The notes beneath the pieces are model-generated. The model saw nothing but the letters and a program-made list of their open reading frames with translations, was not told the origin of the DNA and did no database searches. A stretch of 64,000 bases of DNA, from positions 3,112,501-3,176,500 of the forward strand of contig NZ_CP029553.1 in assembly GCF_003173755.1 (NCBI RefSeq), read 5' to 3'. Source of the stretch: Methylobacterium terrae. Its GTDB lineage: Bacteria; Pseudomonadota; Alphaproteobacteria; Rhizobiales; Beijerinckiaceae. This document shows, piece after piece, positions 50,426 to 63,627 of the stretch (its first letter is position 1; each line of letters begins with the position of its first letter). The position numbers were made by a program, and so were the translations under genes.

Positions 50426-51271
50426 GTGCGTGTCGTCGTTCTCGCAATCATTGCCGCGTTCTCGGCAGGTTCGGCCGCCGCAACCGGCCCCGCCTCGCCC
50501 TCGGCCCAAGCGGAAGATGCGATCCTCGCGCAGATGACCGGGCGCGTGACCGGCGCGATGACGTCGGCGCCGCTGCCGCTCTTCATCCGCATGGCGCCGA
50601 TGCGCCCGCCGGTCGTGCCGGCGATGCGCCGGGAATTCGTCGCCCTGGCGGAGAGCGCGGCCACGCGGCACGGCCTGGATGCCGAGTTCTTCAAGCGCCT
50701 CATCCGGCAGGAGAGCGGCTACAACCCGAACGCCGTGAGCGCGGCCGGCGCCCAGGGCATCGCCCAGTTCATGCCGGCGACCGCCCTGATGGTCGGCCTC
50801 GACGATCCCTTCGATCCGAGGAAGGCCCTGCCGAAATCCGCCGAGCACCTGGCCGCCCTGCGCCAGCGCCTGGGCAACGAGGGCCTCGCGGCCGCCGCCT
50901 ACAATGCCGGCGAGGCGCGGGTGCGGGCGTGGCTGGCCGGCCGCTCCGCCCTGCCGCTCGAGACGCAGAACTACGTCCTCACCATCACCGGCCGGCAGGC
51001 CTCCGAGTGGATCGCGCGCGGCGCCGCGACCTTCGACCGGATCGGCTTCGCCTGGCCGGCCGCGGCCGGGACCTTCGATCGTTCGCGGGAGGAGGGCTGG
51101 CGACCCGGAAGCGGCCTGTTCGAGGCCGCCACCCCGAAGCCCTCCCCGAGGCCTCTCGCGGCGACGGCGCATCCGCGCGCTCCCGCCGTCGCGAGCGCCG
51201 CACGCCGGCCGGTCTCGGGGGAGCGGGACCTGTGCGCCAGGATGGGCTGCATCGTTGCCGCGTCGTACTAG
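50426..51271 (+). CDS. Lytic transglycosylase, SLT domain
   Basis: GTG 50426, with GGGGGCGGA upstream, is preferred over TTG 50417. It gives 281 residues with a signal peptide (VVVLAIIAAFSAGSAAAT). The SLT lysozyme-like domain spans about 75-195: catalytic Glu96 in LIRQESGYNPNAVSAAGAQGIAQFMP, then GLDDPFDPRKALPKSAEHLAAL and LAAAAYNAGEARV. It cleaves peptidoglycan glycan strands to 1,6-anhydro ends. Such enzymes are needed to let envelope-spanning machines pass the wall. Its position in the curli locus fits making room for CsgG assembly. The Ala/Pro-rich C-terminus is probably disordered. Confidence 0.88.
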   Translation: MRVVVLAIIAAFSAGSAAATGPASPSAQAEDAILAQMTGRVTGAMTSAPLPLFIRMAPMRPPVVPAMRREFVALAESAATRHGLDAEFFKRLIRQESGYNPNAVSAAGAQGIAQFMPATALMVGLDDPFDPRKALPKSAEHLAALRQRLGNEGLAAAAYNAGEARVRAWLAGRSALPLETQNYVLTITGRQASEWIARGAATFDRIGFAWPAAAGTFDRSREEGWRPGSGLFEAATPKPSPRPLAATAHPRAPAVASAARRPVSGERDLCARMGCIVAASY

Positions 51272-60582: not shown

Positions 60583-60792
60583 TCACTCGCCCGCCATCAT
60601 CTCCGGCGAGAAGTGGCCGCACCAATCCTGGGCCGAGACCACCGGCCACAGGCCGTGCCCTTGCGGCTCGGGCTGGCTCACCGGCGGGTTGAAGCGGCAC
60701 AGGCCCTCCTCGCCCTGCGCGGCGGCGCCGTTGAGCTTGTGGTCGTCGTAGTAGCGGCAGCTGTGGCAGTTCGCGGACGGGGTCGTCGTCAT
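60583..60792 (-). CDS. Small four-Cys protein
   Basis: This 69-residue protein has AAGGAGG 7 nt before its ATG. It reads TPSANCHSCRYYDDHKLNG, then GLCRFNPPV and WPVVSAQDWCGHF. The Cys pattern is CxxC...C...C, suitable for a zinc or iron-sulfur site. The CRYY, CRFNPP and DWCG blocks look conserved and constrained rather than random. No function is known to me for this type. It is divergent from the radical SAM gene 171 bp away. Confidence 0.75.
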   Translation of the reverse strand: MTTTPSANCHSCRYYDDHKLNGAAAQGEEGLCRFNPPVSQPEPQGHGLWPVVSAQDWCGHFSPEMMAGE

Positions 60793-60963
60793 GTCGTGCC
60801 TCCTTGCGAATTAGAAGAACTCCAATCAGGCGGATAACGGGAGGGCGCGCGGCGGGTTCCCGATGCGCGGTCCGCGACGCGGCACCCCCGATGCGGCTTT
60901 CGACCACGGGGACGCGCCGCCTTCCGCCTTGAACGAACCCAGAACAGAGCCCAGGTTGCCGGT

Positions 60964-62175
60964 ATGGACGACGCCCTGAAGAAGAAGCTCACGATCCTCG
61001 CCGACGCGGCGAAGTACGATGCCTCCTGCGCCTCGTCGGGGGCGCCCAAGCGCAAGGCCGAACCCGGCGGGCTCGGCTCGACCACCGGGGCCGGGATCTG
61101 CCACGCCTACACGCCGGACGGGCGCTGCGTCTCGCTGCTCAAGATCCTGCTCACCAATTACTGCCTGTTCGACTGCGCCTACTGCGTCAACCGGCGCTCC
61201 TCGAACGTGCGACGGGCCCGGTTCTCGGTCGACGAGGTCGTGACGCTGACGGTCGAGTTCTACAAGCGCAACTACATCGAGGGGCTGTTTCTCTCCTCCG
61301 GGATCATCCGCTCGCCCGACCACACGATGGAGCAGCTGATCCGGGTGGCCAAGACCTTGCGTCAGCGCCACGGCTTTCGCGGCTACATCCACCTGAAGAC
61401 CATCCCCGAGGCGAGCCCGTGGCTGATCGAGCAGGCCGGGCTCTACGCCGACCGGCTCTCGATCAACCTCGAACTGCCGACCGAGGCGAGCCTGGAGCGG
61501 CTGGCGCCGGAGAAGGACGGCGCCGCGATCCAGACCGCGATGGGCCAGATGGGCGAGCGCATCCTGCAGGCGAAGGAGGAGAAGCGCCGCTTCGCCCCCG
61601 CCGGGCAATCGACGCAGGTGATCGTCGGCGCCGATGCCAGCACCGACGAATCGCTGATCCGCACCTCGGCGCGGCTCTACGACCATTACGGCCTGAAGCG
61701 GATCTACTACTCGGCCTTCAGCCCGATTCCCGACGCCGCCTCGATTCTGCCGAGCAAATCCCCGCCGCTCCAGCGCGAGCACCGGCTGTACCAGGCCGAC
61801 TGGCTGATGCGGTACTACGAGTTCTCGCCCGACGACGTGGCGGGGGCGACCGAATCCGGCATGCTCGCCCTCGACGTCGACCCGAAGCTCGCCTGGGCCC
61901 TGCGCAACCGCGACCGCTTCCCCGTCGACGTCAACAAGGCCGACCGGGAGATGCTGCTGCGGGTGCCGGGCCTCGGCGTCCGGGCGGTCGACAAGATCGT
62001 GGCGGCGCGCCGGCACGCGACCCTGCGGCTCGACGACGTGGCGCGGCTCACCTCGGGCCTCAAGCGCGCCCGGCCGTTCCTGATCGCGGCCGATTACGCG
62101 CCGGTGCGGCTCACCGACCGGCTCGACCTGCGCGCGCGCCTCGCCGAGCCGCCGCGCCAGCTGAGCCTGTTCTAG
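60964..62175 (+). CDS. Radical SAM protein linked to UdgX (putative DNA modification/repair)
   Basis: This 403-residue protein has the SAM-cluster motif CLFDCAYC, Cys67, Cys71 and Cys74 (CX3CX2C). Before it are KYDASCASSG and GICHAYTPDGRCVSLLKILLTNY, with further Cys; later GYIHLKTIPEASPWLIEQAG and LSINLELPTEASLERLAPEK. Near the end is a helix-hairpin-helix (VDVNKADREMLLRVPGLGVRAVDKIVAAR, about 320-350), a DNA-backbone-binding fold. This is the rSAM_link_UDG family, nearly always beside a UdgX-type gene, as here (stop and start codons touch). It probably does radical chemistry on nucleic acid; the reaction is unknown. Confidence 0.93.
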   Translation: MDDALKKKLTILADAAKYDASCASSGAPKRKAEPGGLGSTTGAGICHAYTPDGRCVSLLKILLTNYCLFDCAYCVNRRSSNVRRARFSVDEVVTLTVEFYKRNYIEGLFLSSGIIRSPDHTMEQLIRVAKTLRQRHGFRGYIHLKTIPEASPWLIEQAGLYADRLSINLELPTEASLERLAPEKDGAAIQTAMGQMGERILQAKEEKRRFAPAGQSTQVIVGADASTDESLIRTSARLYDHYGLKRIYYSAFSPIPDAASILPSKSPPLQREHRLYQADWLMRYYEFSPDDVAGATESGMLALDVDPKLAWALRNRDRFPVDVNKADREMLLRVPGLGVRAVDKIVAARRHATLRLDDVARLTSGLKRARPFLIAADYAPVRLTDRLDLRARLAEPPRQLSLF

Positions 62176-63627
62176 ATGGCGCTCCGCACGATCCGCCTGC
62201 GGCCGGGCGCCGACCTCGCGGGTTTCCGCGAGGCGGTCCGGCGGCTGATCCACGAGGGCGTGCCGCCGGAGGCGGTGACCTGGGTCGCCGGGGAGGCGCG
62301 CTCGCTGTTCCCCGAGGACGCGCCCCCCGGGGAGCCCGCGCCGGCGCTCGCCCTGCCGCGGGCGGTGGCCGCCCTCGCCTCCGCCGTCGTGATGCACCGC
62401 GAGCCCGAGCGCTACGGCCTGCTCCACCGGCTGATCCGGCGCGTCGCGGACGGCGAGCGCCACCTCGCCGAGGTCGCCAGCGACCCGCTGGTCCACCGCC
62501 TGAACCTGATGCGCAAGGCGGTGGGCCGCGACCTGCACAAGATGCACGCCTTCCTGCGCTTCCGCCGCGCCGGGTCGGGCGAGGGGACGGGGGAGGGCGG
62601 CCGGGAGCGGTTCGCCGCCTGGTTCGAGCCCGAGCACCACATCCTCGTCGAGGCGGCGCCGTTCTTCTCGGCCCGCTTCCCGTCCTTCGACTGGTCGATC
62701 CTGACCCCGGACGGCTCGGCGCACTGGGACGGGCGGTCCCTGTCCTTCGGTCCGCCGGGCTGGCGCGAGGACGTGCCCGAGCAGGACGCGTTCGAGGCCG
62801 GCTGGACCGACTATTATTCCAGCACCTTCAACCCCGCCCGCACCAACCTCGCGGCGATGCGGGCCGAGATGCCGAAGAAGTACTGGCACAACATGCCCGA
62901 GACCGCGGCGATCCCGGGGCTCGTGCGCGAGGCCGGGCGGCGGGTCGGGGAGATGATCGCGCGTGCCCCCGAGGCGCCGGCAAAGCGCGTGCCGGCGCGG
63001 GCGCTCGCCGCCATGGCGGCGCAGGAGCCGGACTCCCTCGAGGCGCTGAACGCGGTGATCCGCGCCTCCGAGCCCCTGGTGCCGGGCGCGACGCAGGCGG
63101 TGCTCGGGGAGGGCCCCGTGGGCGCCGCCATCGCCTTCGTGGGCGAGCAGCCGGGCGACCAGGAGGACCTGCAGGGCCGGCCCTTCGTCGGCCCGGCGGG
63201 CCGGCTGCTGGCGGGCGCCCTGCGCGAGGCGGGGATCGACCGCGACCGGGCCTACCTCACCAATGCGGTCAAGCACTTCAAGTTCGAGGCGCGGGGCAAG
63301 CGGCGCCTCCACCGGTCGCCCACCGCCGGCGAGGTCGCGCATTACCGCTGGTGGCTCGACCGCGAGCTCGCCTTCGTGGCCCCGCGCCTCGTGGTGGCGC
63401 TCGGCGCCACCGCCGTGCTCGCGCTGACCGGCCGCCAGGTCCCGATCACCCGCGCCCGCGGGCCGGCCGCCTTCGACGGCAGGCCGTACCGGGGCTTCGT
63501 CACCGTCCACCCCTCCTACCTGCTGCGCCTGCCCGACGAGGCCCGGGAAGAGGCCTATGCGGGCTTCGTCGACGACCTGCGGCGCGCCGCGTCCCTGGCG
63601 GCGGAGCTCGCGACGGCCTCCGCGTAG
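62176..63627 (+). CDS. udgX: DUF4130-UdgX fusion, uracil-DNA glycosylase superfamily
   Basis: This 483-residue protein has two parts. Residues about 80-260 are DUF4130 (YGLLHRLIRRVADGERHLAEVASDPLVHRL, LHKMHAFLRFRR, FEPEHHILVEAAPFFSARF, DWSILTPDGSAHWD). Residues about 290-475 are a family-4-like UDG domain with motif A GEQPGDQED (323-331), RPFVGPAGRLL and HPSYLLR (His445). It also carries the loop KRRLH at 375-379, the UdgX hallmark (KRRIH in mycobacteria). In UdgX the loop His (here His379) becomes covalently bonded to the sugar after uracil is removed, so the protein stays on the DNA. It starts at the base after the radical SAM stop codon. Confidence 0.95.
   Translation: MALRTIRLRPGADLAGFREAVRRLIHEGVPPEAVTWVAGEARSLFPEDAPPGEPAPALALPRAVAALASAVVMHREPERYGLLHRLIRRVADGERHLAEVASDPLVHRLNLMRKAVGRDLHKMHAFLRFRRAGSGEGTGEGGRERFAAWFEPEHHILVEAAPFFSARFPSFDWSILTPDGSAHWDGRSLSFGPPGWREDVPEQDAFEAGWTDYYSSTFNPARTNLAAMRAEMPKKYWHNMPETAAIPGLVREAGRRVGEMIARAPEAPAKRVPARALAAMAAQEPDSLEALNAVIRASEPLVPGATQAVLGEGPVGAAIAFVGEQPGDQEDLQGRPFVGPAGRLLAGALREAGIDRDRAYLTNAVKHFKFEARGKRRLHRSPTAGEVAHYRWWLDRELAFVAPRLVVALGATAVLALTGRQVPITRARGPAAFDGRPYRGFVTVHPSYLLRLPDEAREEAYAGFVDDLRRAASLAAELATASA

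Follow-up and report, generated by a model that had tools for sequence, protein, structure and literature searches.

What a radical S-adenosylmethionine (SAM) enzyme does beside UdgX, a protein that traps itself covalently on uracil in DNA, is the question raised by a two-gene operon in the genome of Methylobacterium terrae (a single contig of 6.16 Mb). We examined this operon within a 64,000-nucleotide stretch of the contig (NZ_CP029553.1, positions 3,112,501 to 3,176,500; hereafter, the window). Its two open reading frames (ORFs), 60964-62175 (403 amino acids) and 62176-63627 (483 amino acids), share one frame, with the TAG of the first directly followed by the ATG of the second. The sequence features described below lead us to propose an SOS-induced, clamp-tethered radical repair module that would act at the replication fork or in post-replicative gaps, with UdgX as an optional uracil cap; we give this proposal about an even chance of being right.

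The protein families of the operon are recognised

The first protein scored 558.5 bits with the NCBIfam profile TIGR03916 (cut-off 343.5), and the second scored 188.9 with TIGR03915 (cut-off 112.25), 293.3 with the UdgX profile TIGR03914 (cut-off 189.95) and 122.2 with the Pfam profile PF13566 (DUF4130; cut-off 27). As all three NCBIfam profiles lie far over their curated cut-offs, chance family assignment is not an issue. A preliminary description of this DNA had listed exactly abutting genes, a CX3CX2C motif, a helix-hairpin-helix, DUF4130 and a UdgX domain with a KRRLH loop containing His379, all of which are present in the sequence (Table 1); it had overlooked the LexA box, the QLSLF tail, three further invariant cysteines of the radical SAM protein and the absence of cysteine from the UdgX protein. 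Its domain assignments, and its functional link between the radical SAM protein and DUF4130-UdgX, are correct. NCBIfam names all three parts: putative DNA modification/repair radical SAM protein (TIGR03916), putative DNA repair protein (TIGR03915) and UdgX (TIGR03914). The radical SAM/DUF4130/UdgX pairing is already established in databases, without an assigned function.

Two sets of relatives were used for comparison. Close relatives are the best 80 of 385, nearly all from Methylobacterium, Methylorubrum and Microvirga, and hence not independent of each other. The phylum sample comprises 199 Pseudomonadota genomes, 38 of which have a radical SAM gene over the cut-off; upstream boxes and protein tails were examined at loci from 30 of these 38, as the other eight gave no locus, and some of the 30 loci overlap the set of 80. 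The spacing from the radical SAM gene to the second gene, estimated from alignments, ranges from -4 to about 267 bases in close relatives, which rules out the exact TAG/ATG abutment as a conserved trait.

A conserved LexA-type box precedes the radical SAM gene

The radical SAM start codon is preceded by the sequence GAAC-N7-GAAC, the reverse complement of GTTC-N7-GTTC, which is given as the LexA box type of Alphaproteobacteria in passages of a 2021 study (PMC8565304). Two such boxes were observed in the window against 1.18 expected, so that a single occurrence is not significant, and the other one (50458-50472, minus strand) is within chance expectation. We count the box before the radical SAM gene as significant because it is conserved in close relatives, not by its occurrence in the window alone: a box lies no more than 60 bp upstream of the radical SAM start in 80/80 close relatives, where 0.09 would be expected. 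These 80 boxes represent 31 different sequences, in which spacer and orientation vary while the halves are fixed by the search pattern, and just 24 boxes were found elsewhere in 1.26 Mb. The box occurs in two main settings among the 80 loci (L009-L088), in GAAC orientation at about -33 or in GTTC orientation at -16 (28/80 loci), a pattern that would fit replacement or inversion of the box within the genus.

The 30 phylum-sample loci include 25 from the same class, window included, and each of these has the box within 100 bp; of the five loci from other classes, three carry CTGT-N8-ACAG instead, which we take to be the box type of LexA in gamma- and betaproteobacteria. This genome also carries the box type of the operon ahead of lexA and of a LexA-like gene. 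Taken together, the promoter sequences suggest that the operon is under LexA (SOS) control.

The radical SAM protein ends in a clamp-type peptide

The last residues of the radical SAM protein, QLSLF, resemble peptides that bind the sliding clamp; passages of eLife.11134 employ QLDLF and QLSLPL as strong clamp motifs. The strict pattern Q[LM]xLF was present in the last 12 residues of 79/80 close relatives and 17 of 29 others, and a looser form in all 80 close relatives. In controls, the peptide was found in none of 19 LipA, 14 BioB and 20 RecJ proteins and in 6 of 58,000 random tails (control rows outside 250-480 amino acids had been dropped, which kept 19/20 LipA, 18/20 SplB-type and 14/16 BioB rows). 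None of 106 second proteins of the operon has a clamp-type tail, which places the peptide on the radical SAM protein only, and it is kept in relatives that lack UdgX as well (L089, L108). Q399 is invariant in an alignment of 30 proteins, and none of the 25 preceding linker positions is as well conserved as the first and the third position that follow it (29/30 proteins); this count is anchored on the glutamine itself and is uninformative about it, and L105, with the peptide QGSLF, fell outside. In the structure model of the radical SAM protein, residues 386-403 have a predicted local distance difference test score (pLDDT) under 50, as expected for a disordered tail. These observations suggest that the radical SAM protein is a beta-clamp client, predicted to bind via QLSLF. 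The word clamp is absent from the main text of a 2013 comparative study (PMC3765255), but as no literature search was aimed at the TIGR03916 family and the sliding clamp together, we do not claim the peptide as unpublished.

A second radical SAM family, SplB-type NF033668, showed a LexA box near the start at 15 of 20 loci (L246-L265, from this genome and other Alphaproteobacteria), three of these boxes lying just inside a start chosen by the script. Given the boxes and the clamp-type tails in both families (SplB-type tail counts are given below), TIGR03916 and SplB-type proteins look like two SOS-controlled groups of clamp clients. The SplB-type gene of this genome (L262; G000:C1:3949457-3950545) encodes the C-terminal peptide QYSLF. 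About 2.3 kb before it, at G000:C1:3946576-3947109, lies a second match to the uracil-DNA glycosylase (UDG) family, with 137 bits, which is below the UdgX cut-off.

DUF4130 is the steady partner of the radical SAM protein

DUF4130 was found on the same contig in all 38 phylum-sample genomes with the radical SAM gene, and over the cut-off in just two (G174 and G185) of the 161 genomes without it. UdgX exceeded its cut-off in 37 genomes, of which 28 have the radical SAM-DUF4130 pair and nine lack the radical SAM gene; among the 28 is G146, in which the UdgX part of the DUF4130-UdgX gene (L128) is seemingly split across two reading frames. No UdgX over the cut-off accompanies the remaining 10 of the 38 pairs, and in the six of these that were read (L119, L136, L137, L142, L144 and L148), the second protein is a DUF4130 protein of 277-295 amino acids without UdgX. 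These counts identify the radical SAM protein and DUF4130 as the core and UdgX as an addition; the steady partner is DUF4130, not UdgX. By eye, no third conserved operon partner was seen in a spaced-out operon (L286) and two loci lacking UdgX (L288, L290).

The two genomes with DUF4130 and no radical SAM gene appear to be natural deletions. In G174 and G185, the box of their congeners, GTTCATGATATGTTC, lies 160-219 bases before the aligned DUF4130-UdgX start, and collinearity of the upstream DNA with intact relatives extends as far as the place where the radical SAM gene used to start; the match of G174 runs about 13 codons into the radical SAM gene, against one of three relatives. In L038 and L047, DUF4130-UdgX is not beside the radical SAM gene but elsewhere in the genome. 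Stand-alone UdgX loci (L155, L157, L170 and L178) have no box, and two further such genomes gave no locus; L173, which starts at a contig end, was dropped from this count, as its genome has the radical SAM-DUF4130 pair.

The UdgX domain has no cysteines and keeps the residues of the covalent trap

Passages of PMC10359453 and PMC8070346 describe the covalent adduct chemistry of UdgX via His109, its preference for single-stranded DNA by 3-5 orders of magnitude and a proposed shielding role; UdgX is described as a 4Fe-4S protein (PMC10359453). The 483-residue DUF4130-UdgX protein contains zero cysteines. The CxxC motif before GEQPG is deleted here and in 75/75 close relatives. It is present in the solved Mycobacterium smegmatis UdgX (MsmUdgX), and of 22 other relatives with GEQPG, 18 have it, the remaining four being from the same genus or order. 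A later UdgX cysteine position is tyrosine here, as in 80 of 106 rows, and cysteine in 18. For a UdgX tree, the window was combined with 14 of the 75 close loci (15 of 76 close rows in all) and with those 22 of 30 other rows that contain GEQPG, the columns of the trait being kept in; the 19 cluster-less rows of this tree form one group with support 100/99, and the branch carrying the cysteine loss is 0.76 changes per column long. Having no cysteine, this UdgX is without the usual cluster ligands, and we file it as a cluster-less variant of one clade. With its motifs intact (Table 1), this cysteine-free UdgX may still form the covalent trap.

Structure models of the radical SAM protein and DUF4130

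Besides the cysteines of the cluster loop, the radical SAM protein has three further invariant ones, C22, C46 and C55, from which we infer a putative second Fe-S site. Its helix-hairpin-helix scored 22.7 bits with PF12836 (residues 321-350), under Pfam's 27-bit cut-off, and HHH_3 was found at E <= 0.1 in 22/22 members. The protein was modelled from an alignment (A3) that held the window, 68 of the 80 close rows and two rows from viral contigs; the quality of the model is modest (pLDDT 67). With this model, Foldseek ranks lipoyl synthase and HydE above spore photoproduct lyase structures; spore photoproduct lyase is absent among the 50 VIA rows for the model, which is not an exclusion. Of the 18 NCBIfam families that the protein matched up to E 1, none is SplB-type NF033668, and in hhalign just 15 columns, at the cysteine loop, align between TIGR03916 and SplB-type proteins (narrow alphaproteobacterial alignments with an effective sequence number, Neff, of about 2.5-3). 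A SplB-like label for the TIGR03916 protein is unsupported by profile comparison, though the alignments are narrow.

The DUF4130 model, computed from 68 of 75 DUF4130 rows and the window (alignment A4), gave a weak RecJ/Cdc45-like fold match in Foldseek, with best E values of 0.006 (BFVD) and 0.026 (PDB). The DHH motif pattern D[HT][HDNS] occurs in 7 of 31 DUF4130 proteins, with no position common to all. Among the residues invariant in DUF4130 are H121, R128, E151, R167 and W173. A role of DUF4130 as a nucleic-acid-binding part would fit this weak resemblance.

A proposed mechanism and its alternatives

Based on these features, the operon may work as follows. DNA damage would lead to LexA cleavage and expression of the operon. 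The radical SAM protein would dock on the beta clamp through QLSLF, while DNA would be held by the helix-hairpin-helix and by DUF4130, perhaps as a non-catalytic RecJ/Cdc45-like fold. The enzyme would then act on a damaged base in single-stranded or gapped DNA, repairing or modifying it through a 5'-deoxyadenosyl radical and perhaps a second cluster at C22/C46/C55; our best guess for the radical substrate is a damaged pyrimidine. Where single strands are exposed, UdgX would cap their uracils covalently through His379, and the site would be shielded from breakage until cleared by recombination or proteolysis. In a wider form, which we hold tentatively and with less confidence than the module itself, TIGR03916 and SplB-type NF033668 enzymes would be a replication-clamp-tethered SOS branch of radical SAM enzymes, with boxes and C-terminal clamp-type peptides in Alphaproteobacteria and profile similarity only at the cluster loop. 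Here, the enzyme would bring two components to single-stranded gaps: DUF4130, holding DNA with a RecJ/Cdc45-like fold but without catalysis, and a UdgX that caps uracil covalently without any cysteine. Such a system would be to bacteria what the HMCES shield is to eukaryotes, with radical base chemistry coupled to it.

Several observations weigh against this proposal. On the regulatory side, L089 and L105, from other classes, have no recognised box of either type, recA of this genome has no perfect box, and relocated DUF4130-UdgX genes in two Methylobacterium species are without one. Among the 29 other relatives, the strict clamp pentapeptide is missing from 12, with 26 fitting the looser form, and the tails of the SplB-type control family (7/18 strict, 15/18 loose) make the peptide less family-specific. 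In G174 and G185, DUF4130-UdgX still follows the LexA box after loss of the radical SAM gene, and G071 has a box followed by a DUF4130 remnant and UdgX only, from which it follows that UdgX is not strictly dependent on the clamp-bearing protein. The radical SAM model is too modest for the geometry of the extra cysteines to be read from it. The DUF4130 fold match is weak and without sequence support, a RecJ profile comparison having given nothing, and the loss of all cysteine ligands might have lowered UdgX activity.

Two alternatives concern UdgX. According to the preliminary description, the radical SAM enzyme might modify or release the trapped UdgX adduct. UdgX does accompany the pair in most genomes (28/38), and its adducts need a clearance route, for which RecA-dependent pathways or proteases are named in passages of PMC10359453; against such removal or remodeling stand the 10 of 38 pairs without UdgX over the cut-off, the 9 of 37 UdgX genomes without a radical SAM gene and the two losses of the radical SAM gene in which UdgX was kept. 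Were the enzyme needed to clear UdgX adducts, losing its gene first would probably have been costly, and we now regard adduct removal as very improbable. Conversely, the UdgX domain of this clade might be degenerate, cluster-less and forming no adduct, so that only DUF4130 would matter. The absence of cysteines from the whole protein and a change confined to a single, long tree branch are in line with such decay, while GEQPG, KRRLH and HPSYLLR are intact in the window and the long ORF is kept in 75 close relatives; we consider decay unlikely.

Other alternatives concern the radical chemistry. The enzyme could be a SplB-like direct-reversal lyase for UV pyrimidine dimers, to which DUF4130 and UdgX would be unrelated add-ons. 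The partner is called SplB-like in passages of PMC3765255, and SplB-type genes likewise have SOS boxes and C-terminal clamp-type peptides; however, the profile match to SplB-type proteins is restricted to the cysteine loop (in narrow alignments), in Foldseek lipoyl synthase and HydE come out ahead of spore photoproduct lyase structures, and the TIGR03916 protein has three extra invariant cysteines, which leaves the lyase with a small share of our confidence, similar to that of a decayed UdgX. We find it quite improbable that the enzyme is instead a DNA-base modification enzyme which, with a sulfur- or carbon-inserting auxiliary cluster and a lipoyl-synthase-like logic, would mark DNA under stress rather than repair it.

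The operon bears on what UdgX does in cells and on the chemistry of the TIGR03916 radical SAM enzymes. Clamp-type peptide, LexA box and steady DUF4130 partner point to where and when the system may act, and the natural deletions tell which part can do without which. Residues Q399, F403, C22/C46/C55 and H379 offer single-residue handles on the role of the pair. If active, the cluster-less UdgX would be a possible air-stable uracil-mapping reagent, and the cluster would then be dispensable for the covalent trap.

Other features of the locus and mobile contexts

A small gene with four cysteines, divergent from the operon, had been put forward as a possible member of it. Only 9 of 80 close relatives have such a gene next to the operon, and just 5 of the 38 radical-SAM genomes have one at all; on this scarce co-occurrence we rejected it as a general operon partner. 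This genome has a second copy (G000:C1:5218558-5218755), and four same-genus sample genomes have one or two copies each. Rfam at gathering scores gave no match in the window.

Matches to the radical SAM gene were found in 158 plasmid records, from Phaeobacter, Paracoccus, Azospirillum and other genera; of these records, 142 are typed non-mobilizable. In viral contigs, two radical SAM loci were found, one with phage-like surroundings, and no DUF4130 relative was confirmed. In an IMG/VR contig (L179:4839-6227), the radical SAM copy adjoins phage-like ORFs, followed by a hemerythrin-like ORF instead of DUF4130; a similar ORF lies between the radical SAM and DUF4130 genes in L286 (names assigned by eye).

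Table 1. Features of the operon and its surroundings, in window coordinates
Feature	Position	Strand	Remarks
Small four-Cys gene	60583-60792	-	ORF exists
LexA (SOS) box, GAAC-N7-GAAC	60931..60945	+	18 bp before radical SAM start codon
Radical SAM protein, TIGR03916 (rSAM_link_UDG)	60964..62175	+	403 amino acids; ORF and profile score
Stretch with three extra cysteines, C22, C46, C55	61027..61128	+	invariant in all 30 aligned proteins
CX3CX2C radical SAM cluster loop, C67-C71-C74	61162..61185	+	invariant in 30/30 aligned proteins
Helix-hairpin-helix motif, residues 321-350	61924..62013	+	PF12836, below Pfam cut-off
C-terminal QLSLF, sliding-clamp-type peptide	62158..62172	+	protein ends PPRQLSLF
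DUF4130/TIGR03915 region of second protein, residues 1-243	62176..62904	+	profile scores, fold model
UdgX domain, residues 246-470, zero cysteines	62911..63585	+	profile score and sequence motifs
Motif A GEQPG, from residue 323	63142..63156	+	sequence
R-loop KRRLH, residues 375-379; His379 expected covalent nucleophile	63298..63312	+	sequence
Motif B HPSYLLR, from residue 445	63508..63528	+	sequence

Relation to known systems

The family set to which the operon belongs is known but uncharacterised; cluster-less UdgX, clamp-type tail, extra cysteines and natural deletions place this member above the ordinary. COG4277 presumably corresponds to the TIGR03916 radical SAM family. Passages of the 2013 comparative study link DUF4130 to radical SAM and UDG genes and guess at a role on thymines (PMC3765255), and those of the 2021 study describe a two-gene COG1573-COG4277 operon under LexA in Bacteroidetes and cite the UDG system of Alphaproteobacteria and Verrucomicrobia as SOS-controlled (PMC8565304). 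The present operon is like the TIGR03916/TIGR03915/TIGR03914 trio and the COG4277-COG1573 operon in its adjacent genes, profile scores and the LexA control reported in these passages; it differs in a UdgX without cysteines, and the same passages make no mention of a clamp-type tail or extra cysteines.

With MsmUdgX (6ail and relatives; E 1.4e-47), the UdgX domain shares GEQPG, the K-R-R-[LI]-H loop and HPS..LR, whereas the CxxC and later cysteine of MsmUdgX, which is described as containing a 4Fe-4S cluster, are deleted or tyrosine here. Solved UdgX chains are UDG domains of 192-229 amino acids; here, UdgX is fused to DUF4130. To the RecJ/Cdc45/DHH superfamily, DUF4130 is related by a weak fold match, with no DHH motif at a shared position and no RecJ profile similarity.

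The ImuA-ImuB-ImuC mutasome is likewise described as an SOS-controlled multi-gene module in which one subunit, ImuB, bears a clamp motif (passages of PMC3901139). The present operon has no polymerase, and the likeness is one of logic only, without a claim of membership. HMCES/SRAP proteins capture abasic sites in single-stranded DNA covalently, shield them at forks and are linked to the sliding clamp, with a protein fold unrelated to that of UdgX. We claim no membership here either. In contrast to HMCES, UdgX itself creates the abasic site.

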